Position numbers and translations under genes: made by a program
Shown: positions 42,923 through 59,919 of the stretch, in pieces
Layout: each line of letters starts with the position of its first letter
How positions within the stretch are numbered: the stretch's first letter is position 1
Origin: Promicromonospora umidemergens
GTDB taxonomy: Bacteria; Actinomycetota; Actinomycetes; Actinomycetales; Cellulomonadaceae
DNA length: 64,000 bases
Reading direction: 5' to 3'
Assembly (NCBI RefSeq): GCF_024171995.1
Contig: NZ_JAMTCT010000001.1
Coordinates: 496,001-560,000 of the forward strand
The notes under the pieces: generated by a model
What the model saw: only the letters and a program-made list of their open reading frames with translations
Told to the model about the DNA's origin: nothing
The model's database searches: none

Positions 42923-42942
42923 GCGACCTGCGACACCAAGCG

Positions 42943-42990
42943 ATGGCCTGTGTCTCCCGGTCCGCGAATGCGGCCGGGGACACGGGCCAT
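42943..42990 (+). terminator. Terminator of the ctaE-qcrCAB region
   Basis: A long imperfect inverted repeat (atggcctgtgtctcccgg ... ccggggacacgggccat) with a gaat loop and two small bulges, 21 nt after the qcrB stop. Confidence 0.75.
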
Positions 42991-43087
42991 TGCCGTCCCG
43001 GCGGGCACCACTGCGGCGCGCGACCAGGACGGCGTCTTCCCCCGCACACCGTCCGGTGTGCGGCCCGATCCTGGAGGTACCTCAGCA

Positions 43088-43717
43088 ATGGCTGTTTACA
43101 CGCTCCCTGACCTGACCTACGACTACGCCGCGCTCGAGCCGCACATCTCGGGCAAGATCATGGAGCTACACCACTCCAAGCACCACGCGACGTACGTCAA
43201 GGGCGCGAACACTGCCCTCGAGCAGCTCGAGGAGGCCCGCGAGACGGGCAACCTGGCAAACGTCAACAAGATCGAGAAGGACCTCGCGTTCAACCTCGGC
43301 GGTCACATCAACCACTCGATCTTCTGGACGAACATGGCGCCAGGGGCCGGTGGCGAGCCGACCGGAGACATCGCTGCCGCGATCGACGAGCACTTCGGCT
43401 CGTTCGAGAAGTTCAAGGCGCACTTCACCGCCGTTGCCGCCGGCGTCCAGGGTTCCGGCTGGGCCGTCCTGGCCTGGGACTCCATCGGTCAGAAGCTGGT
43501 CGTGGTTCAGCTGTTCGACCAGCAGGGCAACATCCCCTTCGCGCTCACCCCGGTCCTGATGCTGGACTGCTGGGAGCACGCCTACTACATCGACTACCTG
43601 AACGTGCGCCCGGACTACATCAAGGCCTGGTGGAACCTCGTGTCCTGGAGCAACGTCTCCGAGCGCCTGGGCCGGGCCAAGACGCAGACCGCGGGCCTCA
43701 TCGTCCCGTCGGCCTGA
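43088..43717 (+). CDS. sodA: Superoxide dismutase, Mn/Fe type
   Basis: A 209-residue SOD. Metal ligands: His in ELHHSKHH (about residue 28), His in GGHINHSIFW, and Asp and His in DCWEHAYYIDY. The GQTxQ-type residues that favour one metal over the other are not enough for a firm call. GGAGG lies 10 nt before the ATG. It is flanked by hairpins on both sides, so it is probably monocistronic, set between two cytochrome b genes. Protection against superoxide made by the bc1 complex is a natural reading of the context, but it is inference. Confidence 0.96.
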   Translation: MAVYTLPDLTYDYAALEPHISGKIMELHHSKHHATYVKGANTALEQLEEARETGNLANVNKIEKDLAFNLGGHINHSIFWTNMAPGAGGEPTGDIAAAIDEHFGSFEKFKAHFTAVAAGVQGSGWAVLAWDSIGQKLVVVQLFDQQGNIPFALTPVLMLDCWEHAYYIDYLNVRPDYIKAWWNLVSWSNVSERLGRAKTQTAGLIVPSA

Positions 43718-43727
43718 CCGGCTGACC

Positions 43728-43774
43728 AGATCCGGCGCACCCTGGGGACCATCTCCCGAGGGTGCGCCGGATCT
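43728..43774 (+). terminator. Terminator of sodA
   Basis: A perfect 16-bp stem (43728-43743 and 43759-43774) with a 15-nt loop, followed by TTCC. It starts 10 nt after the stop. Confidence 0.88.
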
Positions 43775-43887
43775 TTCCTGTCACGAACCAGGCCGCCAGT
43801 TCGTCATCCGGGTGGAAGGCAGCACCTGGCACGGTGTCTACTGGTTCTACTGGCAGGGCACATGTCTCCTACCCCAGGAGTGATGGC

Positions 43888-45594
43888 GTGGCAAAGCAGC
43901 AGCGTCCGAACGGCGTCGGCAAGGCCGCCGACTATCTCGACCAGCGCACGAGCATCGGTGTGCTGGTCAAGGAGTTCGCGCGCAAGGTGTTTCCCGACCA
44001 CTGGTCCTTCATGCTGGGCGAGATCGCCCTGTTCTCGTTCATCGTGCTGATCGCCTCGGGCTTCTTCCTGACGATGTTCTTCGAGCCGTCCATGGCGCTG
44101 GTGCGCTATGAGGGCGAGCACCCGCCGTCCATGGAGGGCCAGCTCATGTCGGCGGCGTTCAGCTCCACCGTGGAGATGTCGTTCGAGGTGCGCGGTGGTC
44201 TGCTGATGCGGCAGGTGCACCACTGGGCCGCGCTGATCTTCGTGTTCTCGATAGTGGTGCACATGTTCCGGATCTTCTTCACCGGCGCCTTCCGCAAGCC
44301 ACGTGAGGTCAACTGGCTGGTCGGCGCCGTCATGCTGATCCTCGCGCTCGCGGCCGGCTTCACCGGCTACTCGCTGCCCGACGACGTGCTGTCCGGCAAC
44401 GGGCTGCGCATCATCGACGGTGTGGTCAAGTCGATCCCGGTGATCGGCTCCTGGCTGTCGATCCTGGTGTTCGGCGGCGAGTTCCCCGGCCACCACATCA
44501 TCCCGCGGCTCTTCACCCTGCACATCTTCGTGATTCCCGGCCTGCTGATCGCTCTGATCGCACTGCACCTGTTCCTCATGGTGCTGCAGAAGCACACCCA
44601 GTACCCGGGCGGTGGGCGCACCGACAAGAACGTCGTGGGCTACCCGGCGCTGCCGGTGTACGTGGCCAAGATGACGGGCAACTTCTTCATCATCGCGGGC
44701 GTGCTGACCCTGATGGGCGGCACGATGGCGATCAACAACGTGTGGAACTACGGCCCGTACGATCCGTCCCCCGTCTCGGCGGGCACGCAGCCGGACTGGT
44801 ACATCCTGTTCGTCGACGGCGCGCTGCGGCTCATGCCCGGACCGGGCTGGGAGTGGGTCATCGGCGGGTACACCCTGAGCATGAACCTGCTGATTCCCGC
44901 CCTGGTGGTCCCGGGAATCCTCTTCACGCTGCTGTTCGGGTGGCCGTTCCTCGAGGCGAAGGTCACCGGTGACCACAAGGAGCACCACGTGCTGGACCGG
45001 CCCCGCAACCGGCCGACGCGCACCGGCATGGGCATGGCGATCATCGTCGCGTTCGTGGTGTGTTCCCTGGCTGCGACGAACGACCTCATCGCCACGCACT
45101 TCTCGCTCGACATCTTCGCGATCACCTGGACCTTGCGCGTCCTCGTGTTCGTGGGGCCGGTCTTCGCGTTCTGGGTCACCAAACGTGTGTGCCTCGGGTT
45201 GCAGCGCAAGGACCGTGAGCTGGTGCTGCACGGCCACGAGTCCGGACGCATCGTGCGGTTCGCCAACGGCGAGTACATCGAGGTGCACACTCCGCTCGAC
45301 GAGGAGGAGCGCTGGCTGCGCGTCAGCTACGAGTCGCCGGAGCCGCTGGAGATCCAGCCCCTCACGGACGGGCGTGGCGTGCGGCGCCCGGGGTACCGGT
45401 CCGACCGGCGCTGGCAGAAGCTGTCCCGGTTCTTCTACGAGGACCGCGTGTCACCTGTCACGCCTGCCGAGGTCGAGGCCGCGCACTCCCACGGCCGGCA
45501 CGACGAGATCGAGCCCGGCCGGCACGACGAGGCCGAGCCGAAGGCGCCGACCGGCGCAGGCGCTGTCGGCGGCGGGCCGCGACACAGCGACTAG
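43888..45594 (+). CDS. qcrB: Second cytochrome b subunit (QcrB paralogue) without qcrC or qcrA
   Basis: A 568-residue protein that aligns end to end with the QcrB at 41198, with roughly four of five residues identical by eye. All haem His residues (MRQVHHWAALIF, IVVHMFRIFF, LFTLHIFVIPG) and the quinol-site QPDWY are kept, so it looks functional. Differences cluster in the helix after TGDHKEHH and in the C-terminal His/Glu-rich tail. It has its own AGGAG ribosome binding site and GTG start and is isolated from the operon by sodA and two terminators. It could be an alternative subunit for the same complex, or a recent duplicate. Confidence 0.9.
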   Translation: MAKQQRPNGVGKAADYLDQRTSIGVLVKEFARKVFPDHWSFMLGEIALFSFIVLIASGFFLTMFFEPSMALVRYEGEHPPSMEGQLMSAAFSSTVEMSFEVRGGLLMRQVHHWAALIFVFSIVVHMFRIFFTGAFRKPREVNWLVGAVMLILALAAGFTGYSLPDDVLSGNGLRIIDGVVKSIPVIGSWLSILVFGGEFPGHHIIPRLFTLHIFVIPGLLIALIALHLFLMVLQKHTQYPGGGRTDKNVVGYPALPVYVAKMTGNFFIIAGVLTLMGGTMAINNVWNYGPYDPSPVSAGTQPDWYILFVDGALRLMPGPGWEWVIGGYTLSMNLLIPALVVPGILFTLLFGWPFLEAKVTGDHKEHHVLDRPRNRPTRTGMGMAIIVAFVVCSLAATNDLIATHFSLDIFAITWTLRVLVFVGPVFAFWVTKRVCLGLQRKDRELVLHGHESGRIVRFANGEYIEVHTPLDEEERWLRVSYESPEPLEIQPLTDGRGVRRPGYRSDRRWQKLSRFFYEDRVSPVTPAEVEAAHSHGRHDEIEPGRHDEAEPKAPTGAGAVGGGPRHSD

Positions 45595-45907: not shown

Positions 45908-45980
45908 GCCGCCATCGTATCCAGGCATCGTCGAATGTGAGCGACTGTGGTCCGGCGGGCCCGGAAGATCGGATCAGGCC

Positions 45981-45989
45981 TGTGGACAA
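45981..45989 (-). promoter_or_regulatory. DnaA-box-like nonamer at the left edge of the island
   Basis: The minus strand reads TTGTCCACA, the form favoured by high-GC actinobacterial DnaA. It is single and unclustered, in the 126-bp gap between the AsnC-type gene and the Z1 gene. Chance occurrence cannot be excluded. Confidence 0.3.
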
Positions 45990-46033
45990 CCGACCGGCGG
46001 CGGCCCCCCACGTACAAGGATCGAGTCATGAAC

Positions 46034-49000
46034 TCAGGTCGATGGCTCGATTGTCGCTCCCGCGCCCTTCACACGGACACTGAAGGCGACTCGTCCAGCC
46101 GGCGCGGCGAGGTAGGGAAGGGCCCAGGTGAACACTGTGGCAATATCCCCGGGTACTACCGCCGGCTTCGGCAGCCGAGCGGGCTCGTAGTGGTCCTTTG
46201 CGTCAGCGACGAAGTTGAGCAGGATGGCGCCTCTGGTCGGGCTCAACAAGTCGTCGGCGATGTGCTTGAAGCGGTCAGTGCCCAGCAGCACCTCGGCCCG
46301 GTCTCCCCAGGCGCGGAGCCGGTGGCCACCAGCGACGATCTCGAGAATGTCGCGTCGCTTCGGGTCCGCGCCGACAAATCCCGCTCGGTCGCGGCGACGA
46401 GCGCGACGGGAGACCGGCACGTCATGGCCGGAGACAGACCGTGTGGTCATCTTGGCATGGCCGCTCGTGGTCGGAACCGGCATGATCACCAGCCAGTCCA
46501 GGATCGTGCGCACCGCCTCGATCTGGCTGAGCATCTCCAGGGACGGAGTGAAGTCGTAGTTCTCTGTCCAGTGGAACCGAGCGACGGCGTCATGAACAGC
46601 GTCTGTGCTCACGATTCCGTATCGGGCACGATAGCTTCCATGCGGCGGAAGACCGTCCTGCCTGGTGGCGTCCGGCTCCTGCTCGGACACCGAGAAGAAG
46701 TCTGCCTCTGAGCCGGCCGCGGTGAGCAGGGGCAACATGGCCTCGAAGTGCTCGGCGTTGGTGGCGGGACTGCGATCGTCCTGTCGAAGGAAGTCCTCGG
46801 CCCGTCCGCCGACACCCTGAAGCATCAGCCGCGCGTTGAACATCTTGGTGCGTGCCGTCGGGGGGAGCCAGGGAACGGACTGGTAGACCAGCGGCGGCAC
46901 GTCGATCGGGCGCACCCTCGGTCGGCCCCCCTCGTCGACGCCCTGGTACTGACGGAGCTGCGCGCGGAACTCTTCCTCGTCGCGGACGATGCCTTCGAAG
47001 GCGGTGTAGAGATCCACGGTCGAGCTACGGGGAGCCGGTACCGCGCGGCCGATGAACAGGCGAACCAGGTCGCCATAGCCCGAGCGGTACCCGAACCAGC
47101 GGCCCATCTGCATGAGCGTGGAGGCAGACGTGGCGCGGCGGGTGTAGTACGTCGTGGTCAGACCCTCGACGGTGAACCCACGGGAAAGCTTGGCGCCACC
47201 GACGAGAATCTTCCAGACGTCGTCCGCCTGGAAGTCGAGCAGGTCCTGCACCTTGGCCAGGTCCTTGTCGCCGTTGACCACCACGACGGGTGAGCGCCCT
47301 CGTGAGATGCGGCCTACGGCCTCACCGATGAACGGACGCAGAGCGGTGAACTCAGCAGGGAACGCCTCGTGTGGCGCTCGAGCTGCCGATACAGCCGCGA
47401 AGTCGTCTCGCCACAGCTCGTGCAGCCTGCGCATGCCGGCCGGCGACGAGTAGCCGGCTTCCTTCCATACCCGGCGGACGGCGTCCGCCAGCTCGGCCTG
47501 GTCATCCTGGAGACGGCTCTCGTGCACCAGCATCGTGTGGTGCCGGAACCGGTCGGGGTGGCTCTGTGCGCTGGCTCGGTACAGCTTGATCGCACCACTG
47601 AGCACGTAGGCGTCCAGAGCAGACCTGAGCTCGGCGTCGCGCGCGGTGTCGTCGTCGGCGGGTGCGTACAGCCCTCGAACGAACGCCCGTTCGTTCGAGG
47701 TCGCCAGGTCAGCTTCTGGCTCGTCGTTCGGGTCGCGGTTCAGGTCGTGGAACTGCCGTCCGCCCATGTACCCGGCCGGAGGGGTGAGCGACACGATGAA
47801 GTCCTTGGGAAAGATGTCTGCCTCGTCGTCGGGGTCGACGAACACGTTCGCGAACGGCGTGGCCGTGTAACCCACGTACTGAGCACGCGGCAGCATCTTC
47901 AGGAGCTCGGCGATGTGCCGGTTGATCGCGGTCCGGTTCCTTTCCTCTTCGCTCCCCTTGGGCCGCCTTGTGTTGACGGACGCCTCGTCGGCCTCGTCAT
48001 CGATGATCAGTGTGGGGATGTCGTCGAGGCGTGCGCTGATCGCCTTGAGATCCTTGACGATCTTGGCCAGGACAGAAGCATTCTTCTTCACGACGGCGAG
48101 CCGCACGTCGACGCGTGGCAGGTTCTTCGGGTCGAAGAGCGGGAGGCTGGGGGCCGCCAGATGGTCGGTCTGCCGGAAGTCCAGGTAGCCGAGCGCGTTC
48201 CTCAGGGCCTTGTAGTCGTCGTCCGCGGACGTGAGGCGCCGGATACCGGGCTTCAGCAGGTCGTGCGGCTGCCCGCCCAGACTGACGAAGCGGCCGTCCT
48301 TCCAGTCACGGTCGTGCGACTTGACGTAGTCGATGTCCCTTGCCTGCTCCGGGTCGGCGGGGTCGCGTCCGCCCAGCAGGTTCTCCCGCCCGACGAGCTC
48401 CATGTCGAGGCGGCGCTGCGTCTGGCCGCGCAGCAGCTCGATGGTCCCGGTCAGCACGATCACCAGGCGGTACCCGGCATCGACAGCCTTGGCGATGGTG
48501 CCCGCGAAGTGCGCGGTCTTGCCGCTCTGTACGTGCCCGACCACCAGACCCTTCGACTGGTACGGCTCCGGTCTCATCGGATCGGCCAGGCGACGCACCA
48601 CCTCGAAGGTCGTGGCGTCAAGGTCCGCTACCGAGGAGGGGGGAAGTTCTTTGACGTCCTTGAGATAGTCGCGATACGCAGTCCAGTAGAACGACTGCTG
48701 CATGGCGACCTCGTCCGTGTACCAGGGGTCCCACGGCAGCTCGTCTGCGATGACGACCGCGCCGCCCTGGAGGGGATAGGCGGCCAGAAGCCAGTCGTAG
48801 GCATCGGTGCCGAGATCGAGCTGCTCCACGATCCGGCGACGTCGTGACTCGCTGTGCGGCACGGTCCCGACGGCCCATCCTTCGGGATCCGCGGCATCCC
48901 ATCGGCCGAGCCGCTGGGTGAACTCCACGCGGGCAGGGCCGTTGGGGTCGTCGGAAGTGATCTGCTCCACGAGGTCGGCCACACCGACGGTCTCGCCGGT

Positions 49001-49102
49001 CCTGCGCAGGTAGAACGTCACGACGTCGAGCAGAGGCTCGGGCCCGTGGCCCTCCATTCCGTGCAGACCGCGAACGACAGCGTCGGTGACCGGGTCGCTC
49101 AT
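46034..49102 (-). CDS. Z1 domain protein (SF2 helicase-like ATPase), fifth gene of the defence operon
   Basis: A 1022-residue protein. Walker A is GLVVGHVQSGKTAH (K195), Walker B is LIIDDEADEAS (DDEAD at 368-372). The Z1 part follows (VSLTPPAGYMGG, FRHHTMLVHESRLQ, AEFTALRPFIGEAVG) with VGGAKLSRGFTVEGLTT and LMQMGRWFGYRSGYGDL (665-673), which act like SF2 motifs V and VI. Z1 proteins occur in restriction operons with GHKL ATPases and PD-(D/E)XK nucleases. It probably translocates or remodels DNA; its activity is not shown. Its ATG overlaps the upstream nuclease stop (ATGA). Last gene of the operon. Confidence 0.9.
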   Translation of the reverse strand: MSDPVTDAVVRGLHGMEGHGPEPLLDVVTFYLRRTGETVGVADLVEQITSDDPNGPARVEFTQRLGRWDAADPEGWAVGTVPHSESRRRRIVEQLDLGTDAYDWLLAAYPLQGGAVVIADELPWDPWYTDEVAMQQSFYWTAYRDYLKDVKELPPSSVADLDATTFEVVRRLADPMRPEPYQSKGLVVGHVQSGKTAHFAGTIAKAVDAGYRLVIVLTGTIELLRGQTQRRLDMELVGRENLLGGRDPADPEQARDIDYVKSHDRDWKDGRFVSLGGQPHDLLKPGIRRLTSADDDYKALRNALGYLDFRQTDHLAAPSLPLFDPKNLPRVDVRLAVVKKNASVLAKIVKDLKAISARLDDIPTLIIDDEADEASVNTRRPKGSEEERNRTAINRHIAELLKMLPRAQYVGYTATPFANVFVDPDDEADIFPKDFIVSLTPPAGYMGGRQFHDLNRDPNDEPEADLATSNERAFVRGLYAPADDDTARDAELRSALDAYVLSGAIKLYRASAQSHPDRFRHHTMLVHESRLQDDQAELADAVRRVWKEAGYSSPAGMRRLHELWRDDFAAVSAARAPHEAFPAEFTALRPFIGEAVGRISRGRSPVVVVNGDKDLAKVQDLLDFQADDVWKILVGGAKLSRGFTVEGLTTTYYTRRATSASTLMQMGRWFGYRSGYGDLVRLFIGRAVPAPRSSTVDLYTAFEGIVRDEEEFRAQLRQYQGVDEGGRPRVRPIDVPPLVYQSVPWLPPTARTKMFNARLMLQGVGGRAEDFLRQDDRSPATNAEHFEAMLPLLTAAGSEADFFSVSEQEPDATRQDGLPPHGSYRARYGIVSTDAVHDAVARFHWTENYDFTPSLEMLSQIEAVRTILDWLVIMPVPTTSGHAKMTTRSVSGHDVPVSRRARRRDRAGFVGADPKRRDILEIVAGGHRLRAWGDRAEVLLGTDRFKHIADDLLSPTRGAILLNFVADAKDHYEPARLPKPAVVPGDIATVFTWALPYLAAPAGRVAFSVRVKGAGATIEPST

Positions 49103-50061
49103 GATGGGGTCCCTTCGAAGAAGAACGAGGTCAGCGGCCCGCCGGGCTCGTCGGCATCGAGGTCTGTCACGTCCACGCGGTAGGTCAGCAGGTCGACGAG
49201 GTCGTCACGCGGTACGACGGCGTGCAGGCGGTCGGCCGTCACCGCGGGGAACCGGGTGTCGACGAGGTAGGCGGTCGGTGCCGTACGTTGCACGTAGGCG
49301 GTCTCGTACAGGTCGGCATCCTCGTCGTGCCAGCCGAGGCGCTCGAGATGGTCCTCGAACCGGTGGTCCCGATGGACCAGGCGCCGTACGTCGTGGACCA
49401 AGCCGGGCAGCGACGCCCCGTCCATGCCACGAGTGAGCTGGACCGAGACCAGCCACAACGGGCGCCCCGGCGTCGGGGTGAGCTGGCCGGTGCCCGAGAT
49501 GGTGTGCCTGCGCCGCTCGGACAGCGTGGTCTTCACCTCGGCGTCATACCCCGGGAGCGCAAGGTCGTGCTGCTCGGCGAGCGGGCCGAGCCACCAGTGC
49601 AGAACGTCGTGCGGGCCAGATGAGCCCAGGAGCGACCGGACAGCGAGGAGCTCCCCCACGAGGCCCACCTGCTGCGCCTCGCTGAGCCGTGGCCGGGACA
49701 TGAGCAGAGCCCGAAGATTCGTCAGCGCGGCGTTGGTCCCCGCAGCGAACGAGGCGCCGCCGCGCATCGCCTCGATGATGGCGACCAGCAGCCCGTACGC
49801 CTCGTACCGCAGATCCTTGGCGGGCACCGTGAGCACGTTCCAGGTACCACCGTCGCGTTCGGTCTGCGTCACGCCGACGCGTGCGAAACGTCCCAGGTCC
49901 GGGAACGTACCGTCGTCGGGCGTCCACAGCTCGAGGTTCTGCCGGCTCGGGTCCACGGCGAGCAAGCATTCCGGCGAGCTGCACACCGTCTGCAGGGTCG
50001 TGGCGCTCGCGGAGAGGTACGCGTCCAGCGTGGCGGGGCTGAGCTGGGGGAGAGCCGTCAT
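49099..50061 (-). CDS. PD-(D/E)XK motif nuclease (DUF4420 type), fourth gene of the defence operon
   Basis: A 320-residue protein. A helical N-terminal half (LRYEAYGLLVAIIEAMRGG, ALLMSRPRLSEAQQVGLVGELLAVRSLL) leads to the nuclease core: E137 in VGELL, then HDLALPGYDAEVKTTLS with D166, E175 and K177 as the D...ExK set. This is the layout of the DUF4420 family, predicted to be the cutting subunit in MORC/GHKL-type restriction operons. Its ATG overlaps the stop of the GHKL gene and its stop overlaps the start of Z1, both as ATGA, so expression is tightly coupled. The target sequence is unknown. Confidence 0.85.
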   Translation of the reverse strand: MTALPQLSPATLDAYLSASATTLQTVCSSPECLLAVDPSRQNLELWTPDDGTFPDLGRFARVGVTQTERDGGTWNVLTVPAKDLRYEAYGLLVAIIEAMRGGASFAAGTNAALTNLRALLMSRPRLSEAQQVGLVGELLAVRSLLGSSGPHDVLHWWLGPLAEQHDLALPGYDAEVKTTLSERRRHTISGTGQLTPTPGRPLWLVSVQLTRGMDGASLPGLVHDVRRLVHRDHRFEDHLERLGWHDEDADLYETAYVQRTAPTAYLVDTRFPAVTADRLHAVVPRDDLVDLLTYRVDVTDLDADEPGGPLTSFFFEGTPS

Positions 50062-51563
50062 GGGAGGCCTGTCCCGCCGTCGAGCTGCGCTTGCTGTTCA
50101 AGGACCGCGGCCAGCACCAGCTCCTGCCAGGCCTGGGTCTCCCGTTTCATCCGTGCCCCGTTCTTCGTGCTGGTCAGGTGGTTGGCGAGCAGCAGGTGCA
50201 GCAGAGTCTTGACGAGGGGCGCGTCGTTGTTGCGGTTGCTCCGGCCGCCGACGATCGCGGTCCGGTACCGGGCGTTGACCTTGACGAGCCGTGCTTCACG
50301 GTCGATCTCGTAGACCTTGTCAGGGGGCAAAGTTCGCCAGCGGATGTCGAACGGCTCCTCGCCGGGCACGGTCTCGGTCGCCTCTGCGTACGCGGTGCGG
50401 AGCGAGGGTGGCAGGCCGAACCTCGGCGGCACGACGGCGATCGGCCGGCCTCGCCGTCGACGCGCCTCCCGCGAGCTGTCGCGAGCCCGGTCGAGGAACC
50501 CTGCGAACGACAGGCCCGACCCAGCTCGCGCCTTCAGCACAGCGTCGGCCAGGGTCGCGTCGAGCACCACGCCGGTCTTCTCCGGGTTGAAGGTGACGTG
50601 AGCCCCGGTGACGGCGTCGAGATCCAGCTCGACGCGGGCGAGCTCGAGATCCTGCGAGCGGTGGGCCAGGCCGTTCCAGCCGCCGGCCTGGAGCAGGCGT
50701 TCATTGCGATAGACGTAGAGGCCCTGCCCGTCGTTGTCCCCGACATGGAAAGCGGGCGATCGGCGTTCCGTGGCCGGCCAGAGGTGGGCGCGGAGCGCGA
50801 CGGAGCCACCGGGTACGTCGGCGACGAGGCCGATCGGATAGCCGGGCTCCGTCCCGCGATAGCCGAACGGGTCGAGCGGGCCGACGGCGCGGGGTGCGCC
50901 CGGGAAGCCGTCCTCGTACTCCTCGATCGTGAGCCGTACCTCCCCACGGGCGAGGATGCGGTGCAGCACGAGTCCCAGGTGCATGACGAGGCGGTCGATC
51001 GTGTCCTCGAGCCAGACGCCCTGCTGCATCGCCTCGGTGGAGCGCAGGAACGCATCGACGTCCTGCCACTCGACGAGGGTCCCTGAGGCCATCGCGAACC
51101 CGGCGTCGACCTTATCGAGTGCTGTCGCCGCGTCGCCGGTTCCGAAGGCCTCGACAAGGGGGCCGGAGTCGAGCGACTCGCGACGCAGCCGCCGTCCGAC
51201 GGCGGTACGTCCCGCCTGCCGCGACCAGACGACCAGCGTGCGGGCCTGGCTCAGGGAAGCGGCCTTGAGCCCTATCCCGAAGTGGCCGAGCTCTGCCGTC
51301 CCGTAGCTACGGCGGCGGGCATAGGCCATCGCCGAGTCGATGGCGTCTTCGTCCATCCCCGACCCGTCGTCCACGATCTGGAGGCCGGTGGCGCGCCCGC
51401 CGTGCAGCACGAACCGGACGAGGATGTTGCGGGCGCCGGCATCGACGGCGTTGTCCACCAGGTCGGCGATCGCGGTGGACAGGGTGTGGTGACGCCCGAC
51501 GGCGGACGCGATGGCCGGGTCCGGGGCGACCCGGCGGCTGGAGACGGGCTCGGGGACCGACAC
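50058..51563 (-). CDS. GHKL (MORC/Hsp90-type) ATPase, third gene of the defence operon
   Basis: A 501-residue protein with an N-terminal GHKL ATPase: the N-box STAIADLVDNAVDAGA (N38), G1 box IVDDGSGM (65-70) and G2 box GHFGIGLKAASLS (93-105). The KAASLS ending is the MORC-like variant. It is followed by an S5-like domain and a C-terminal helical/basic region (YRTAIVGGRSNRNNDAPLVKTLLHLLLANHLTS). Such proteins probably clamp DNA on ATP-driven dimerisation. It starts at a GTG 1 nt after the DUF499 stop and overlaps the next gene by 4 nt. No histidine kinase core is present. Confidence 0.88.
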   Translation of the reverse strand: MSVPEPVSSRRVAPDPAIASAVGRHHTLSTAIADLVDNAVDAGARNILVRFVLHGGRATGLQIVDDGSGMDEDAIDSAMAYARRRSYGTAELGHFGIGLKAASLSQARTLVVWSRQAGRTAVGRRLRRESLDSGPLVEAFGTGDAATALDKVDAGFAMASGTLVEWQDVDAFLRSTEAMQQGVWLEDTIDRLVMHLGLVLHRILARGEVRLTIEEYEDGFPGAPRAVGPLDPFGYRGTEPGYPIGLVADVPGGSVALRAHLWPATERRSPAFHVGDNDGQGLYVYRNERLLQAGGWNGLAHRSQDLELARVELDLDAVTGAHVTFNPEKTGVVLDATLADAVLKARAGSGLSFAGFLDRARDSSREARRRRGRPIAVVPPRFGLPPSLRTAYAEATETVPGEEPFDIRWRTLPPDKVYEIDREARLVKVNARYRTAIVGGRSNRNNDAPLVKTLLHLLLANHLTSTKNGARMKRETQAWQELVLAAVLEQQAQLDGGTGLP

Positions 51564-51564
51564 G

Positions 51565-54500
51565 TCAGCCCTCCCGGAACTCGGACTCGACGCCGAGCTG
51601 CCGGCCGTTCTCTCGCACCGTACGCACCGTGCTCGCGTCGAAGCCCTCAGCCTTCTCGGCGGTGACCTCCAGTGTCAGCTCCAGGACGTCGGGCCGGGCC
51701 TGCTGCAGGTGCAGCAGCAGCTCGTCGACCAAGTCCCTGAACTTCGCGCCGAGGTCGGCGTCGGCATCGACGTCGACGCGGGCGCGGTACCGGGCGTTCG
51801 GGACGCGTGGAGTCGGCGTCGATGCCAGCGGTGGGGGTCCGCCGACCGGCGCCGGCTTCGAGGCTGAGGCACCACCTGCACCAGGATCGGCGGTGGCCCC
51901 GGTCCTGGTCTCGCTGGTCGTACTCGCTTGGGCGGCCGCCTCGCGTTCGCGCTGCCGCTGGGCCACGGCCAGGTCCGGGCGGACCAGCAGGGTGGAGTCG
52001 GTCACCGGGCCGAACTCCGTGTCCTCCAGGGGAACGGCAAGACCGGTGAAGAGGCCCGTCGCGTGGTCGTATCCCTCGGCGAGCGCGAAGCCCTGGCCGG
52101 CGAAGGCCGCGTCGAACAGCGCGTCGGACACTGCCGAGACCAGGACGGACCGATCCCGCAGCCTCGGCAGGTAGGGGTACTTGCTGTAGTAGCCCCACAG
52201 CTCGCCGACGCTCAGGTGCCCGGTGTTCCACCGTGCGCGCAGGTGCTCCCCGAGGTCGAGCCAGATCATCTTGGGCGTGGTGGTCACCCGCAGCTGGTCC
52301 TCCTTGACGAAGCGGGTGCCGGCGCGGGTGGCGAGCCGCTTCTCCCCGCCGTCGCACCGCACCTGGCTGACCCGCAGCGGCTCGGAGGCGACAGGCTGCA
52401 CGGCGTGCAGGCCCCAGACCCAGGTACCGGCGATCTGATCGGTCACCGTCTGGTCGGTGAGGCTGACCGTCTTCTCTGCTTGGGCGGCAGCGGCCTGGGT
52501 GAGGTCGAGCGACACCTTCTCTCCGAGCACGGACGACCAGGCGAGGAAGGAGCGCACCGTCGACTCCAGCTCGTCCCAGCGTCGGGTGTCGGCGGCGAGC
52601 AGCACCACGGTGTTGGGCAGCGACCGCGGGGCGGTGCCTCGGTTGCGGAGCACGTCCAGCGCGAAGGCGGCCGCCGGGCTGCCGAGGTCCTTGGCCGTGT
52701 GCCGGAACCGCGGGTGGACCAGGACCAGGCGCACCGCGTCGTCGTCGGGTACGTCCGCGCTGGACTCCGGGGCGACCACCACGCCGGCGAGCTCGACGGT
52801 GGCCCGGGGCGCCTGGGCCTTGAGCCGACGGACGACCTCTTCCCAGACGCGCTCCACGGGCAGGTGCCGGGCACGCTCGGCGGCCTCCCGGTTGAGCGAC
52901 TTCTGGGTGTCGTACCAGTAGCGGTAGTCGCCGACGTAGAAGTGCGAGGACCGGTCGGCAAGAGCCTGGAGGGCCGAGCTGACGTTGCCGACCACGTCCC
53001 CGGGCTGGGCCATGCCCAGCAGGAGCCGCTTGCGCTCGACGCCCTTGACCTGGGAGCCGGTGGTGGGAGCGGACTGGACGAACACCGCGCGCGCCGTGCG
53101 GACGGTCACCGAGCGGTCGCCGAGCAGCGAGCGCTCCCCGTCCACCGCACGGGCCACGGGTGTGGCGCCGTCACCGTCGGAGTCGATGTCGGACTGCATG
53201 ATCGCGTCCCAGGCGGGGGACAGGTACTGCACGACCTCGCGCCGGATCTCGCTCGAGCCCAGGGGGACGGAGCCCGGCAGGATCAGCGGGGCCGGGTCGC
53301 GGGCGACCCAGAGCTGGTGCACCACTGCGCTCATGAGGCGCAGCACGCCGCGCGTGCGCTGGAACTTCTCCAGCGTGGACCACTCGGCGTAGAGCCGGTC
53401 GAGCAGCTCGGGGTGGATCGGGTACGACGCGCGCATCCGTGCCTCGTACGCTGCCGTCGCGGCCTCGGTGGGGAACTCGCCGGTGTGCTTCTTGTAGAAG
53501 TCGGTGAACTTTCGGGCGGTGACGCCGATCAGCCGGCTGCGCTCGTCGTCGACGGGCTCGAACAAGCGGCGCCGCACGATCTCGTACGACTCGTCCTTCG
53601 ATGCCGGCGCCCACTGGTAGGCGACACGCCGGATCACGTTGTCCAGCCGCGCCAGGGCCGCCCGGCCGAACTCGCCGCCGACCTCGAGATCCGAGGCGCC
53701 GGCCTCCTCGTCACCGGTGAGCAGCCGATCGCTGGCAGGTACCGAGACGAGCAGGAGCGCGCCCGGAACGGACTTGGCCGCTTCGGTAAGGGTCTGTGCG
53801 AACGTGAACTGGGTCTCGAAGTCGCCTGCGGGAAGGTCGTCCCGCCGGTTGAGCTGCCGCGCGTAGGCGACCCACTCGTCGATGAGGACCACCGCCGGCG
53901 AGTACGCGGCGAGGAGCGTTCGGAGCGAGGCTCCAGGGTTGGTGCCCGTGCGGTCGGCCTCGGCCACGTGCGCGTACCCCTCGGATCCGCCGAGCTGCCA
54001 CGCGAGCTCGCCCCACAGGGTGCGCACCACGGTCCCGTCGGGCTTGGTGTCCGGTTGTCCGGGCGCGATCTCGTTCCCCACGATCGCGACCCGCTGCACC
54101 TCGCGGCCGAGAGCCTGCCCGACGGCGGACGGGTCACCTCCGGAGAGCACGTCCTGGACCTCCTGGGGGAAGTCCGTGAGAGCGCGGCCGGAGAACAGGT
54201 GCCACACGGCGAGCATGGAGTGGGTCTTGCCGCCGCCGAATGTGGTCTGCAGGTTGATGACGGCGTCCGCGTTCGTGTCCCCGCCGATGCGCATGGTCGA
54301 CCGGCGCAGCAGCTCGCGCAGACCGTCGGTCAGGTAGGTACGACGGAAGAACTCGACGGGGTCGGCGTACTCGGCGTCGACGGGGGTCGCGCCCGGATGG
54401 TCGGGGAAGGCGACGCCGAACAGGTCGGCGGCGAACTCCGAGCTGGCGAAGCGGCCCTCGGCCACGTCCTTGTGCGGTGGCAGTACGTCGCGCCACGACG

Positions 54501-55017
54501 GCAGGTCGGCGTCCGCGGTGCCGGTGACCACCGCAGCCTTGACCGACTTCTTGGTGTCTCGTTCGTACTCGGCCCGCTGCACCTCGAGCCGCATCGCCTT
54601 GACCTCGTCCGCCTTGCGCACGTCGCCGATGGCGCGCAGCAGCAGCTCTGTGGTGTCCAGGGCGCGCCGGGTCTGCTCGGACGTGAACGCCTTGTTGTGC
54701 GCCCAGTCGTTGCGGGTGGCACGCAGCTCGCCCGCCAGTCCCTGCTCGGTGCGTGACAGCACGCCGTTGAAGACGTAGCCGAGGCTACCCATGGGCTCGG
54801 TGATGATGCGGAACTGGAGCTGCGGGTCGGCGCGGTCGTAGCTCTGCCCGGCCTTGCCGTTCGTGGCGTCCTTCGCCGCGAGCAGGGAGGTCCAGTCCAG
54901 GGTGCCCGCATGACCGGGCGGCAGGTGGGGTGCGACGGTGCGCTCGATGAACGGGTCGAGCGCACCGGCGAGGACCTCCAGGGCGCGGCCGACGTACTCG
55001 CGGTTGCTGCGTGCCAT
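51565..55017 (-). CDS. DUF499 ATPase with N-terminal Swt1-type HEPN domain, second gene of the defence operon
   Basis: A 1150-residue protein. Residues about 1-135 form a helical HEPN-like domain with TRNDWAHNKAF, in which R102 and H107 make the R-x4-H motif, followed by RALDTTELLLRAIGD, the Swt1-type signature. The ATPase core has Walker A LQTTFGGGKTHSM (K263) and Walker B VVLIDEWVAYARQL (D379, E380), both diagnostic of DUF499. The C-terminal part holds FARLRDRSVL-like and Gly/Pro/Ser-rich linkers and a final small domain (YRARVDVDADADLGAKFRDL). It overlaps the methyltransferase stop by 1 nt (TGATG). An RNase role for HEPN is inference. Confidence 0.88.
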   Translation of the reverse strand: MARSNREYVGRALEVLAGALDPFIERTVAPHLPPGHAGTLDWTSLLAAKDATNGKAGQSYDRADPQLQFRIITEPMGSLGYVFNGVLSRTEQGLAGELRATRNDWAHNKAFTSEQTRRALDTTELLLRAIGDVRKADEVKAMRLEVQRAEYERDTKKSVKAAVVTGTADADLPSWRDVLPPHKDVAEGRFASSEFAADLFGVAFPDHPGATPVDAEYADPVEFFRRTYLTDGLRELLRRSTMRIGGDTNADAVINLQTTFGGGKTHSMLAVWHLFSGRALTDFPQEVQDVLSGGDPSAVGQALGREVQRVAIVGNEIAPGQPDTKPDGTVVRTLWGELAWQLGGSEGYAHVAEADRTGTNPGASLRTLLAAYSPAVVLIDEWVAYARQLNRRDDLPAGDFETQFTFAQTLTEAAKSVPGALLLVSVPASDRLLTGDEEAGASDLEVGGEFGRAALARLDNVIRRVAYQWAPASKDESYEIVRRRLFEPVDDERSRLIGVTARKFTDFYKKHTGEFPTEAATAAYEARMRASYPIHPELLDRLYAEWSTLEKFQRTRGVLRLMSAVVHQLWVARDPAPLILPGSVPLGSSEIRREVVQYLSPAWDAIMQSDIDSDGDGATPVARAVDGERSLLGDRSVTVRTARAVFVQSAPTTGSQVKGVERKRLLLGMAQPGDVVGNVSSALQALADRSSHFYVGDYRYWYDTQKSLNREAAERARHLPVERVWEEVVRRLKAQAPRATVELAGVVVAPESSADVPDDDAVRLVLVHPRFRHTAKDLGSPAAAFALDVLRNRGTAPRSLPNTVVLLAADTRRWDELESTVRSFLAWSSVLGEKVSLDLTQAAAAQAEKTVSLTDQTVTDQIAGTWVWGLHAVQPVASEPLRVSQVRCDGGEKRLATRAGTRFVKEDQLRVTTTPKMIWLDLGEHLRARWNTGHLSVGELWGYYSKYPYLPRLRDRSVLVSAVSDALFDAAFAGQGFALAEGYDHATGLFTGLAVPLEDTEFGPVTDSTLLVRPDLAVAQRQREREAAAQASTTSETRTGATADPGAGGASASKPAPVGGPPPLASTPTPRVPNARYRARVDVDADADLGAKFRDLVDELLLHLQQARPDVLELTLEVTAEKAEGFDASTVRTVRENGRQLGVESEFREG

Positions 55018-57896
55018 CAGTTGTCCTCGTCACCGTTGAAGTCGAACGCACCCTGGCCGGGAGCGGGTGCCGCCTCGCGGGCGAGGCTCGTGAGCTCGGC
55101 CCACGAGCCACCCAGCGCGTTGAAGACGCGTGCTTCTGGGCTGCCCTTGGAGTCGGCCAGCGTGTACAGGCGGTAGGCGAGGGCTTGGACAGCCTCCGGG
55201 TCGACTCGCGTGCTCGCTGCCGCGAACACGGGTGCGGCGGCATCGAGGCCGCCGTGCTCGTCGGACAGGATGCGGGCCAGGTGGCAGGTGGCCTCCCACA
55301 CGGAGATCCGCACGTCGGCGGTGGGATCCCAGAGTCCGGGCAGGTCCGACGGTCGGACGAGGTTCACCTTGCCCGCCACGCTCCGCAGGATGCCGCCCTC
55401 GGCCAGTCCCTCTACCGAGGTGTTCATGGCCCTGGCCAGCACCACCGCCTCGCCGTAGGCCGCGGTGGCCCAGCCGTACTGGGAGAACCAGGCCAGGGCG
55501 AAGCGGCTGTCCGAGTCGAGCTCGCCCTCCGCCTCGGACTGCACCTCGTCCAGCACCTGGTTGATCAGGGCGAGCGCTGTCTTGACCGGCATGCGGGAGC
55601 CGTCCGGCTCCAGCACCGCCGAGTGCCGCGAGTAGATCGCCATGCCTGGACCGATCGCGGCCTGCGCGAGGTCCACCGGGGCGACGCCGCCCTGGCGGAC
55701 GTCGACCAGGGCAGCGGGGAGCTCCTGCTGCAGCGCGGCGAGGAATGCCCGGCGGGACGACGGCGGCGCGTCGGCCGGGCGGGGACGGAGGGACAAGACG
55801 ATGGAGGAGGCGAGGGCGTTGGTGCCCACCGAGATCATGCGCCCCCCGCGTTCGGAGCGGACCGGCCACGTTGCGGTGATGGTCCAGCCCTCGCGGATCA
55901 TGCCCTCCAGGAACGTGGACCAGCCGGTGCTGACCACGCCCTCCTTCTCGAGCTCCGCCTGCTTGAAGGCGTAGAAGACGGTGATGGGGTAGTCGGCGCT
56001 CGCGGCCTGGCGTGCCCGGCCGAAGACGTGCGCGAAGCCGGTCTCGAAGAACTTCTCGGCTGCGCTTTTACCGCCGTGGCGGTAGGAGTTGGCGACCAGT
56101 TCCTCCGCTTTGGGGACGAGCATCGTGCTGAACAGCGCGGGGTGGACCGGGCGCAGGGAGCGACGGAGCCAGACATAGAAGAAGTCGCTCAGGTCGCTGT
56201 AGCCGATGTTGTCGTAATAGGGCGGGTCGGTGGAGACGATCACGTTGGTGTAGTCGCGGGTTGACGCGTCGGCCTGGTGGGCTGAGCCCACTCTCTCGGA
56301 AGGCAGCGCGTCGATGGCCTTTGCGACCCAACCAGCGCTCCACCCAAGGTCACAAGGCCCCTTGCAGAACGCATTGCCTTCTGCGTAGTCCCAGACCATC
56401 GGCAACGCCTGCCGAGCAAAGGTATCCGACACACTCTCCTTCGACGGGGCGGAGTTCCAACGGCACAGCAATGAGTTGGTCGATGAAAGCCGACTGACAG
56501 CCTGACTGAGGTACGTGGCGACCGCGTCGGCGTAGGCCTCCGCTTCCGTGCCGCCGTCGGCGAGACGGATGCCTTCCGGCTGGCCGGCGTCGTGGGCGTC
56601 CTTCAGGACCTGCTCGCGAGCCTCGGCTACGAGGTCGCTGAACGTGGTCAGTGCGGTGAGTTGCCGATCCGTGAAGTAGTCCGAGAAGGCGAAGAAGCCC
56701 CATCTGCGTCCTTGTGCGTTTCCCCCGAACGTTCCTCGCGCTCCTGGCGCGAGTGCCGTGTCGTCTGCGCGGATCGCGAGACCAGCTAGACGAGCAGAGC
56801 GCGCCGCTTCAAGATGCTCAGCCGTCGGCTCAAGATATATGCGTCGGCGTTTGCCTTCGGCTACTACAGCGACAAGTGCTGAGTCTGGTTTGTCCTCGTT
56901 GGGGACATCCGTCTGCCTGTGTGCCACCGCGGCCGAGATGAATGTTTCACATGCAAGGCAGTGCCCACCCCGTTGACCAGACATCGTCCCGTCGTCGTCC
57001 TTCGTCGGCGCCCTCTTCGGGTCGTGACCGATCGAGAAGGCGACCCGCCTGCCCGAGGCGACCGTGGCGTCGTCGACCACCGTGGGGACGACGTAGGCCT
57101 CCTTGCCCTTCTTCTTACCGAGCCACCAGGACCGCACGAGCGGCATCTGGATTCCGCACGCCGGGTTGGGGCACGTCACCGTCCGCGCCCAGATCCAGGC
57201 GATGACCGTGGCCTTCTCAGTCTTGCCGGTGGGCTCGCGGTCCTTGCCGAGGACGGGGACGTCGGCCTGCGGGTAGAGGTGTCCGATGCGCTCCTGTGCG
57301 CGGTCCCGCATCCAGGCGCCGTAGCGGCGGACGTCCTCGGCGAGGCCGGTGGCGCGGGGCCAGTCGCCCATCTTGGTGTCGGCGGCGCCGGGGAACACAG
57401 GCGGACGCCCGGCGAACTTCGGCGGGATCTCGATGAGCGCCTTGTTGATGAGGACGGCGACGGGGTTGAGGTCGCTCGCGTGGGCCTCCAGCCCGAGGCG
57501 CTGGGCCTCCAGGGGGATGGTGCCGCCGCCGGCGAACGGGTCGAGGATCGCGGGCGGGTTGCCACCGGTGGACCGCATGATCTCCGCGCGGGCTTCGGCG
57601 TAGAGGCGCTCGTCGGAGATGTTCTCCCACTTCACGAGCCGCCGAATGATGTCGTGCAGGCGCTCCCGCTCGACCTTGACCTCGTCCTCGGAGAGGTCGG
57701 GGTCCGAGGAGGGGTCGTCCACGAGCTGTGCGAAGAGGACCGCGCGGGCCGCGGCGAGCGGCCGTCGGGCCCACCACAGGTGGAGCGTCGAGGGATGGCC
57801 GTGCCGGATCGACTTCTCCCGGGCCGATTCTGCGTTGATCTCCTCCAGCGGGATCGAGACCTCGATGAGCTTGCGGCGGTTCCCCGGAGATGTCAC
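55017..57896 (-). CDS. DUF1156 DNA methyltransferase, first gene of the defence operon
   Basis: A 959-residue amino-methyltransferase (N6-adenine or N4-cytosine). The DUF1156 hallmark GHPSTLHLWWARRPLAAARAV is at 33-52. SAM motif I is LDPFAGGGTIPLE (118-130), the catalytic motif IV is DPPYYDN (557-563), and a zinc ribbon (C242, C247, C313, C316) lies between. The long insert between motifs probably includes the target-recognition part; it is markedly less GC-rich than the flanks. The GTG at 57896 follows TATATT by 6 nt, a strong leaderless promoter. It is divergent from the XRE gene. Confidence 0.93.
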   Translation of the reverse strand: MTSPGNRRKLIEVSIPLEEINAESAREKSIRHGHPSTLHLWWARRPLAAARAVLFAQLVDDPSSDPDLSEDEVKVERERLHDIIRRLVKWENISDERLYAEARAEIMRSTGGNPPAILDPFAGGGTIPLEAQRLGLEAHASDLNPVAVLINKALIEIPPKFAGRPPVFPGAADTKMGDWPRATGLAEDVRRYGAWMRDRAQERIGHLYPQADVPVLGKDREPTGKTEKATVIAWIWARTVTCPNPACGIQMPLVRSWWLGKKKGKEAYVVPTVVDDATVASGRRVAFSIGHDPKRAPTKDDDGTMSGQRGGHCLACETFISAAVAHRQTDVPNEDKPDSALVAVVAEGKRRRIYLEPTAEHLEAARSARLAGLAIRADDTALAPGARGTFGGNAQGRRWGFFAFSDYFTDRQLTALTTFSDLVAEAREQVLKDAHDAGQPEGIRLADGGTEAEAYADAVATYLSQAVSRLSSTNSLLCRWNSAPSKESVSDTFARQALPMVWDYAEGNAFCKGPCDLGWSAGWVAKAIDALPSERVGSAHQADASTRDYTNVIVSTDPPYYDNIGYSDLSDFFYVWLRRSLRPVHPALFSTMLVPKAEELVANSYRHGGKSAAEKFFETGFAHVFGRARQAASADYPITVFYAFKQAELEKEGVVSTGWSTFLEGMIREGWTITATWPVRSERGGRMISVGTNALASSIVLSLRPRPADAPPSSRRAFLAALQQELPAALVDVRQGGVAPVDLAQAAIGPGMAIYSRHSAVLEPDGSRMPVKTALALINQVLDEVQSEAEGELDSDSRFALAWFSQYGWATAAYGEAVVLARAMNTSVEGLAEGGILRSVAGKVNLVRPSDLPGLWDPTADVRISVWEATCHLARILSDEHGGLDAAAPVFAAASTRVDPEAVQALAYRLYTLADSKGSPEARVFNALGGSWAELTSLAREAAPAPGQGAFDFNGDEDN

Positions 57897-57902
57897 AGGC
57901 TC

Positions 57903-57908
57903 AATATA
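57903..57908 (-). promoter_or_regulatory. -10 box of the five-gene defence operon, inside a palindrome
   Basis: The minus strand reads TATATT, 6 nt before the GTG, the most AT-rich -10 element seen in the window. It is part of the palindrome caatatattg at 57902-57911, which could also be a regulator half-site. Two direct repeats gtgaagagcc lie upstream at 57954-57963 and 58000-58009. Confidence 0.65.
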
Positions 57909-58025
57909 TTGGGCCTGTCGACCTCGGCCTGGCCGCCCCGGTCGCGCGGCCGGGTGAAGAGCCGTGCGGGCGGGTGAATCGAGCCCCGGCACGGCGCTCG
58001 TGAAGAGCCCTACATGTTGGGCAGC

Positions 58026-58041
58026 GTTGCGTATCCGCAAC
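58026..58041. promoter_or_regulatory. Putative operator in front of the XRE gene
   Basis: A perfect 6-4-6 palindrome (gttgcg tatc cgcaac), 17 nt before the XRE start. The size and position fit autoregulation by a controller-type XRE protein, and the site also lies upstream of the methyltransferase operon promoter. Confidence 0.6.
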
Positions 58042-58058
58042 GGTGAGCGTGGGTTCTC

Positions 58059-58442
58059 GTGTCGGAAACCCACCTGGACCTGGACTGGTCGGCCTACGCC
58101 GAGGAGATCGGGCGGCGTGTCGCAGCGGTCCGACGACTCCGGAAGGTCTCGCAGACAGAGCTGGCGAACGTGGTGGGACTCTCCCGATCGCACTTGCAGA
58201 ACATCGAGCGGTCCCGGAGCTCGGGCGAGGGCTCGGACGGGAACCCGTCGATCCGCAAGCTGGTGGAGATCGCCCAGGCGCTCGCTGTTCCCGTGACGGT
58301 GCTGCTCCCGCAGGGAGTGCCGCAGGCGGAGTACCGCGTGATCGGGGAGCGGCTCTGGCCGGGGATCGACAGCGAGGTCGCGAACGCCGTCGGGCAGCAT
58401 CCGTTGCCGCCCCAGGTTCGGCCGAGCGCGCGGATCTCCTGA
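58059..58442 (+). CDS. XRE-family regulator divergent from the defence operon
   Basis: A 127-residue protein with a classical helix-turn-helix: IGRRVAAVRRLRKVSQTELANVVGLSRSHLQNIERS, then SIRKLVEIAQALAVPVTVLLPQ. The tail of about 40 residues (AEYRVIGERLWPGID) is not a known domain to me. It resembles controller (C) proteins of restriction-modification systems in size and place, beside a palindrome at 58026-58041. The GTG at 58059 begins VSETHLDLDW. It is followed after 1 nt by the HNH endonuclease gene, so the pair is co-transcribed. Confidence 0.88.
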   Translation: MSETHLDLDWSAYAEEIGRRVAAVRRLRKVSQTELANVVGLSRSHLQNIERSRSSGEGSDGNPSIRKLVEIAQALAVPVTVLLPQGVPQAEYRVIGERLWPGIDSEVANAVGQHPLPPQVRPSARIS

Positions 58443-58443
58443 C

Positions 58444-59412
58444 GTGACCGGACCAGGGGAGCGAGCCTACGTCGGCGTCACCGACAATGCCTGGGCCGCA
58501 TTCCTTCACGCTCGCCCCGACCTCGCGGAGGTCAACTTCTGGCTACCCACGCCGTCGGCGTCGTTCAAGGCGATCGGCCGGGGCGACCCGTTCCTGTTCA
58601 AGACGCACTACCCGGCCAACCGCCTGGTGGGTGGCGGTTTCCTGATGGAGTACCGGATACTGACCGTCTCCGAGGCGTGGCGGTTCTTCGGGGAGGGCAA
58701 CGGCGTCGCCTCGGTCGATGCCCTGCGCGACGCGATCGTCCGCTTCCGGACCCGCTCCGCGAACCCGGTCGGCCCCGGAGAAGACCCGCGCATCGGCTGC
58801 ATCATCCTGGGCGGCGTGTTCTTCGCGGACGACGAGGCGTCACTCGCCGCGCCGTCGGACTTCGCGGGGAACATCGTGCGGGGCAAGTCGTACCCCCGTG
58901 CGGCGGGCTCGTACGTGGAGGACGCGCTGTGGCGGCTCCTGGAGTCCAGCGGCGGCCTGCGCATGCCCGGTGACGCCGGGCTCCCGACCGTGATCCGCGG
59001 GCCGGTGTTCCGGGAGCAGCCTGGGCTCGTGCAGGTGCGTGCAGGGCAGCGGCAGTTTCGCGCCGCGGTGACCGTTGCCTACGACCGCACCTGCGCGGTA
59101 ACGGGTAACCGGATCTCGGCGGCGCTGGAGGCGGCGCACATCCGGCCCGTGGCAGCGGCGGGCCAGAACCGGGTGGACAACGGGCTGTTGCTGCGCTCCG
59201 ACGTGCACGCCTTGTACGACGCGGGCTACCTCGGGCTCGATGCGGGCTACCGACTGCAGGTCAGCCCGCGGCTTCGTCAGGACACGGGTAATGGCGACTG
59301 GTACTACGGGCGGGCCGGCGCGGAGCTGCTGGTGCCGGAGCGGCGCGCGGACCGGCCGGACCCGGTCGCGCTGGAATGGCACATGGACGAGGTGTTCCGG
59401 CGGGCGGCGTGA
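58444..59412 (+). CDS. HNH endonuclease with N-terminal PUA/EVE-like domain
   Basis: A 322-residue putative restriction enzyme. The N-terminal domain reads YVGVTDNAWAAFLHARPDLAEVNFWLPTP, GDPFLFKTHYPANRLVGGGFLMEY and IGCIILGGVFFADDEA, the PUA/EVE-like fold found in front of HNH domains that may read modified bases. The HNH domain has C217, H232 (EAAHIRPV), N246 (DNGLLL) and H255 (DVHALYDAGYLGLD). It is coupled to the XRE gene (1-nt gap) and divergent from the methyltransferase operon. It may be a second restriction activity of the island or a methylation-dependent one; target unknown. Confidence 0.88.
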   Translation: MTGPGERAYVGVTDNAWAAFLHARPDLAEVNFWLPTPSASFKAIGRGDPFLFKTHYPANRLVGGGFLMEYRILTVSEAWRFFGEGNGVASVDALRDAIVRFRTRSANPVGPGEDPRIGCIILGGVFFADDEASLAAPSDFAGNIVRGKSYPRAAGSYVEDALWRLLESSGGLRMPGDAGLPTVIRGPVFREQPGLVQVRAGQRQFRAAVTVAYDRTCAVTGNRISAALEAAHIRPVAAAGQNRVDNGLLLRSDVHALYDAGYLGLDAGYRLQVSPRLRQDTGNGDWYYGRAGAELLVPERRADRPDPVALEWHMDEVFRRAA

Positions 59413-59478
59413 AGGAAGGCGTGGTGCGGATATCAGCCGCGGCAGCCAGACTTCGTAGTCGGGAGGTGGTTGTTCACG

Positions 59479-59838
59479 ATGGAATCATCAATGCTCGGCG
59501 AGCGAATCGCGAGGCTGGCGGGGAATGCCGGACTGAGTGAGGATGCACTCGCGAACGAGACGGGCCTCGGCCATTCGGCCGTCAGCCGCATCGTGAGTGG
59601 ACAGCAGGAGCCCAAGGCCTCCGAGCTCTTGGCCCTGTCGCGAGCGCTCGCGGTGCCGTATGCAGAGCTGATCGAGAAGGCGCCCTTGGGAGAACGCGTC
59701 CGAGTGACCGCCCACACGGCTCATCCGGACGGTGTGGACTTGTCGGCGATTCGGGCTCGGCTGGTCACCTATCTGCGTATCGCGGCGCACCTCGACATTC
59801 CGAAGGCCCCCGCGATGCGAGGGCCTTCTAACCGGTAG
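59479..59838 (+). CDS. Small XRE-family protein, C-terminus reading into a hairpin
   Basis: A 119-residue protein with the helix-turn-helix LGERIARLAGNAGLSEDALANETGLGHSAVSRIVSGQQEP and SELLALSRALAVPYAELIEK. The last residues (PKAPAMRGPSNR) are encoded by a 12-bp stem-loop, so the natural 3' end may have been lost. Proteins of this type often precede an ImmA/IrrE metallopeptidase, which is absent. The start is uncertain: a TTG at 59470 is too close to GGGAGG, and ATGs at 59479 or 59488 are both possible. It may be an antitoxin-like remnant. Confidence 0.65.
   Translation: MESSMLGERIARLAGNAGLSEDALANETGLGHSAVSRIVSGQQEPKASELLALSRALAVPYAELIEKAPLGERVRVTAHTAHPDGVDLSAIRARLVTYLRIAAHLDIPKAPAMRGPSNR
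59802..59828 (+). terminator. Hairpin inside the 3' end of the small XRE gene
   Basis: A 12-bp stem with one G-A mismatch-type position (59802-59813 and 59817-59828) and the loop gat. It lies in the last codons of the XRE ORF. Confidence 0.65.
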
Positions 59839-59850
59839 CCGAAGCATCCG

Positions 59851-59879
59851 GGGGTGTACCGCTCATGGTGGTACACCCC
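59851..59879. terminator. Hairpin downstream of the DEDD exonuclease gene
   Basis: Perfect 10-bp arms (ggggtgtacc / ggtacacccc) with a 9-nt loop, 41 nt after the minus-strand stop at 59920. It may terminate that gene; it also marks the right edge of the island. Confidence 0.6.
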
Positions 59880-59919
59880 ACGCGTGACAGCAACGTCAGA
59901 TCTCCTCGGCGGTAGCACG

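Follow-up and report, generated by a model that had tools for sequence, protein, structure and literature searches.

We describe here a five-gene, minus-strand operon in a 64,000-nucleotide stretch of Promicromonospora umidemergens (contig NZ_JAMTCT010000001.1, positions 496,001 to 560,000; hereafter the window) which, as judged from the encoded proteins, combines parts of two known anti-phage systems, the predicted DNA-marking half of the first and the predicted DNA-cutting half of the second. The marking half (HmaBC) comprises a DUF1156 methyltransferase and a HEPN-DUF499 ATPase; the other half (the triad, or predicted effector) comprises a MORC-type GHKL ATPase, a predicted DUF4420 nuclease and a third gene (Table 1). 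All five frames are open and their motifs intact, and the domain matches, together with the same gene order in ten other genomes, bear out the operon proposed in an earlier, sequence-only reading of this DNA. That reading also interpreted the locus as a hybrid system, and here our support is partial. The five-gene order is present in 11 genomes, window included; the triad also occurs without HmaBC.

Table 1. Features of the operon and its surroundings (window coordinates).
Feature	Position	Strand	Basis or remark
Inserted island, approximate extent	45924..59919		Spacing of flanking-gene matches in sister genomes
Third triad gene	46034..49102	-	Z1 ATPase according to the sequence-only reading
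DUF4420 predicted PD-(D/E)XK nuclease, 320 aa	49099..50061	-	Pfam DUF4420, 109 bits
Prokaryotic MORC-type GHKL ATPase, 501 aa	50058..51563	-	Pfam HATPase_c_3
HmaC-like ATPase, 1150 aa, N-terminal Swt1-type HEPN and DUF499 AAA+	51565..55017	-	Pfam HEPN_Swt1 and DUF499
HmaB-like DUF1156 DNA methyltransferase, 959 aa, GTG start	55017..57896	-	Pfam DUF1156, PADLOC HmaB
XRE-type helix-turn-helix (HTH) frame, divergent	58047..58442	+	HTH_3 match
HNH_2 endonuclease gene, directly after the HTH frame	58444..59412	+	Pfam HNH_2
Further small frame on the island	59470-59838		HTH-like by eye

The suggestion that DUF1156 and DUF499 proteins form a defence pair was upheld by the PADLOC models, with the methyltransferase matching HmaB at 1072 bits (it also exceeds the Pfam DUF1156 cut-off) and the ATPase matching HmaC at 805 bits. 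The methyltransferase carries motif I (DPFAGGG), motif IV (DPPYYDN) and Zn-type cysteine pairs; motif IV is readable and kept in all 11 five-gene loci, and motif I in all nine where it can be read. By motif rules, the enzyme is presumably an N6-adenine or N4-cytosine methyltransferase. HmaB itself has been described both as an m5C enzyme (Payne 2021) and as an adenine methyltransferase (PADLOC; Rakesh & Krishnan 2026). The HEPN Rx4H and DUF499 Walker A and B motifs of the ATPase are likewise kept in 11 of 11 loci. The NCBIfam models NF042962 and NF042963 (anti-phage DUF499 and DUF1156) missed these proteins, at 133 and 113 bits against curated cut-offs of 1200 and 1000, and look to be models of another subtype.

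The Hma system (PADLOC, Payne 2021) is the Type-1 DUF499-centred BREX-Related (BR) system of Rakesh & Krishnan (2026). The window operon shares with it the adjacent methyltransferase and ATPase in the same order, but differs in being without the Swi2/Snf2 helicase HmaA; the PADLOC comparison that had been proposed thus returned two of its components and not the third. The HmaA profile reached at best 50 bits in the window's own genome, over a short stretch, whereas a genuine HmaA, that of Tomitella biformata, scores 1337.

Within the triad, the GHKL ATPase contains the N, G1 and G2 boxes, the NPEK lysine and, by eye, the MORC motif QGLYVYRNERLL, as given in the part of Iyer 2008 covered here, and its closest solved sequences are MORC2/4/3 (PDB MORC2, E 2.6e-9). 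The candidate catalytic residues of the DUF4420 protein (E137, D166 and E175-x-K177) are invariant across 10 aligned sequences; its structure model (predicted local distance difference test score, pLDDT, 89) gave no PDB fold match at E<=0.001. One triad segment reads STLMQMGRWFG in the window, with S replacing the D of DTLMQMGRWFG, the consensus with relatives.

How often does this arrangement recur? In the window's own family, the GHKL protein matched eight of 221 genomes, four of which have the five genes in order (the window, L041, L042 and L043), the methyltransferase being matched in two separate pieces in L042 and cut by a contig end in L043. Six more five-gene loci (L080 and L126-L130) came from another family of the same order, in which 10 of 349 genomes had matches, and a third family (47 genomes) supplied a single triad without HmaBC (L082). 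A class-wide search with HmaC, which hit 30 places in 28 of 355 genomes (24 places were fetched besides the window, the five left out being lower-scoring), brought in one further five-gene locus, L158, whose family belongs to a different order. The adjacency count called for in the sequence-only reading therefore stands at 11 genomes, from three families and 10 genera. Pairwise identities across the first ten loci are 35-84%, depending on the protein, so the set is not one recent copy, and because the same genes stand in the same order in ten other genomes, the operon looks like a recurring machine rather than a chance neighbourhood. It is nevertheless rare. This GHKL clade was present in six genomes of an order-wide sample of 396, three of them with the five genes; apart from the window's genome, a phylum-wide sample of 396 genomes yielded no full-length relative of the protein; and 39 plasmid records held one GHKL match covering at least 80%, on Arthrobacter p2MP, which is a triad without HmaBC.

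The two HmaBC proteins have different histories. The DUF499 proteins of the 11 five-gene loci form one clade with 100/100 support (51 rows), whereas the methyltransferases do not group together: their tree requires three changes, and a single clade is rejected (approximately unbiased test, p 2.5e-7; 9 vs 31 rows). This second tree left out 11 broken, cut or stub rows covering <=90% of the query (L042-L045, L054, L055, L113, L136, L142, L146 and L152), and so holds nine of the 11 five-gene loci. In it, the window enzyme clusters with the methyltransferases of L107-L110 and L156, loci whose partners are HmaA or others. Thus it appears to be DUF499 that follows the effector type and the methyltransferase that changes, and DUF499 is the likely coupling part between core and effector.

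Among 12 loci found with HmaC in the window's family, four have the triad, six HmaA and two neither; the 24 further class loci comprise one with the triad, 18 with HmaA over most of its length (counting L144, cut by a contig end, and L108 and L155, in two pieces), two with partial HmaA and three with neither or cut. Because both samples rest on the HmaC model, they carry no GHKL-query bias; the five-gene loci of family f5 come from the GHKL query, and helicase-type DUF499 proteins of f5 are consequently under-sampled. The two partners occur together in none of the HmaC-found loci (Fisher p 0.0007 or 0.002, by handling of partials; 0.002 or 0.006 without L043, where the contig does not reach the upstream side). 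An HmaA-type helicase is present in each of nine additional Hma loci, namely L032, L033 and seven chosen among the top plasmid matches; in L115 the stretch covers only part of it. L149 and L159 gave no DUF1156 match. L109 and L110 have neither HmaA nor the triad and carry other candidate effectors. In L109 (1-12916; G586, same genus), HmaB-HmaC is followed by a 1109-aa protein without Pfam or PADLOC match and a Druantia-E-like helicase (357 bits), perhaps a third effector kind on the same core. In L110 (10834-12771; G512), a GmrSD_N-domain protein lies between HmaB and HmaC, and neither HmaA nor the triad was found in 20 kb.

Other described systems fit less well. The methylases of MORC-type operons are mostly cytosine and rarely adenine enzymes in the portion of Iyer 2008 covered, where DUF1156 and HEPN-DUF499 go unmentioned. 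CglI/NgoAVII, as described in part of its source, differs in having a PLD-B3 nuclease, a 5-methylcytosine (5mC) methylase and three genes without MORC or DUF499. The MZA system (mzaABCDE) differs too, since MzaB, MzaC and MzaD matches lie far under the NCBIfam cut-offs (121/850, 279/1500 and 61/420 bits). MzaE is the AIPR protein of MZA; neither it nor a sigma-like MzaA was matched among the island proteins scanned, a scan outside which the further small frame lay.

The sequence-only reading placed the DUF1156 enzyme in the position of a 5mC methylase. Five of the 11 loci have both kinds of methylase (L041, L080/L081, L127, L130 and L158); in the other six, namely the 64 kb of the window, L042 with its extension, L126, L128, L129 and the short contig of L043, no 5mC methylase came to light. 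Could HmaBC then be chiefly a self-marking or licensing unit that replaces the 5mC methylase, with the triad as cutter and DUF499 serving methylation rather than effector firing? Of 19 loci with the same triad, 18 carry HmaBC, a 5mC methylase or both, and in BREX a subset of the system's proteins is needed for host methylation (PMC13326643, in the part covered). Nevertheless, DUF499 rather than the methyltransferase tracks effector type, which argues for contact between DUF499 and the effector; the HEPN motif is also intact, and both methylase kinds coexist in five loci, so that we regard this explanation as rather improbable.

Free adjacency of HmaBC and triad, the independence of halves that the sequence-only reading had itself raised, is a less remote alternative, although still an unlikely one. 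Eight of the 19 triads in the clade lack HmaBC (L044, L045, L053, L082 and L131-L134), and partners are intermixed on the triad trees, where exchange is visible. Seven of these eight have a 5mC methylase; L045 has only a partial match to one, despite its '5mC' label in those trees. In L044 and L045 the methyltransferase is reduced to its first ~90-110 residues, followed by a DUF499-tail-like stretch and then the GHKL gene (stubs at 9327-9704 and 9060-9450, with differing left end points), from which we infer derivation by deletion from five-gene operons; the triad matches contain no stops. That triads apparently outlast HmaBC, in L045 even with a mere 5mC-methylase fragment nearby, weighs against an obligatory bond and hence against the coupling that we favour. 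Conversely, junctions are tight and the order fixed in ten loci (the order also holds in L158), HmaA was seen beside none of the 11 triad-HmaBC loci (L043 being cut by the contig end, and L042 showing weak SNF2 similarity downstream, 30-39% over short stretches, from a different helicase), and the separate clade of triad-locus DUF499 proteins is unexpected under free adjacency. A decaying remnant, or a role other than defence, seems very improbable: the L042 methyltransferase is matched as two pieces and two relatives have deletions, but the window has five open frames with intact motifs on a cleanly inserted island.

Several neighbours of these loci were also recorded. L045 (8044-8778 and 9060-14966) has a stop-free triad, and its methylase traces in 20 kb are the DUF1156 stub and the partial 5mC-methylase match. 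Large sacsin/TmtA-like proteins lie upstream of the triad in L053 (6654-9944) and L082 (13086-17858), HmaBC being absent. L081 (1158-5807) encodes a 1549-aa GHKL ATPase fused to a sigma-70-like region (MzaB and MzaA in one chain), and the similarity extends over most of this protein in L132 and L133; L127 and L134 match its GHKL and far C-terminal parts, the sigma part being unmatched. All five of these loci have a 5mC methylase. A ZacC-like protein (L080, 38-3400; PADLOC 1074 bits) lies ~1.5 kb past the five-gene operon end, on the opposite strand.

The island itself is delimited by comparison with sister genomes. Its two flanking genes, a 100-aa frame to the left of the operon and the right-hand gene, have matches 40-123 bp apart in all nine sister genomes fetched, against ~14.0 kb in the window; the flanking exonuclease-like gene is present in 12 of 12 other genomes searched within the genus. 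Because the flanks nearly adjoin in sisters, the five genes, HTH frame, HNH_2 gene and small frame form one block, which was either gained in this genome or lost in its sisters. The divergent HTH frame is a possible regulator of the operon; neither it nor the HNH_2 gene was found beside the other five-gene loci. Outside the island, a superoxide dismutase gene lies between two cytochrome-b (QcrB-like) genes (41198-45594), as in all nine sister genomes fetched, the dismutase being split in two pieces in L166.

In summary, a BREX-related core is seen to recur with an entirely different set of effectors, and the MORC ATPase, a protein of poorly understood function in bacteria, is placed in a defined, recurring setting. 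L045, where the triad is open and neither kind of methyltransferase is intact in the vicinity, raises the question of whether methylation is needed for self-protection from the effector. Furthermore, these loci amount to a natural experiment in which the methyltransferase has been swapped while DUF499 keeps to its effector type. A coupling role for DUF499, which is likely on these grounds, touches an open point of BREX-type systems and could be tested by module swaps.
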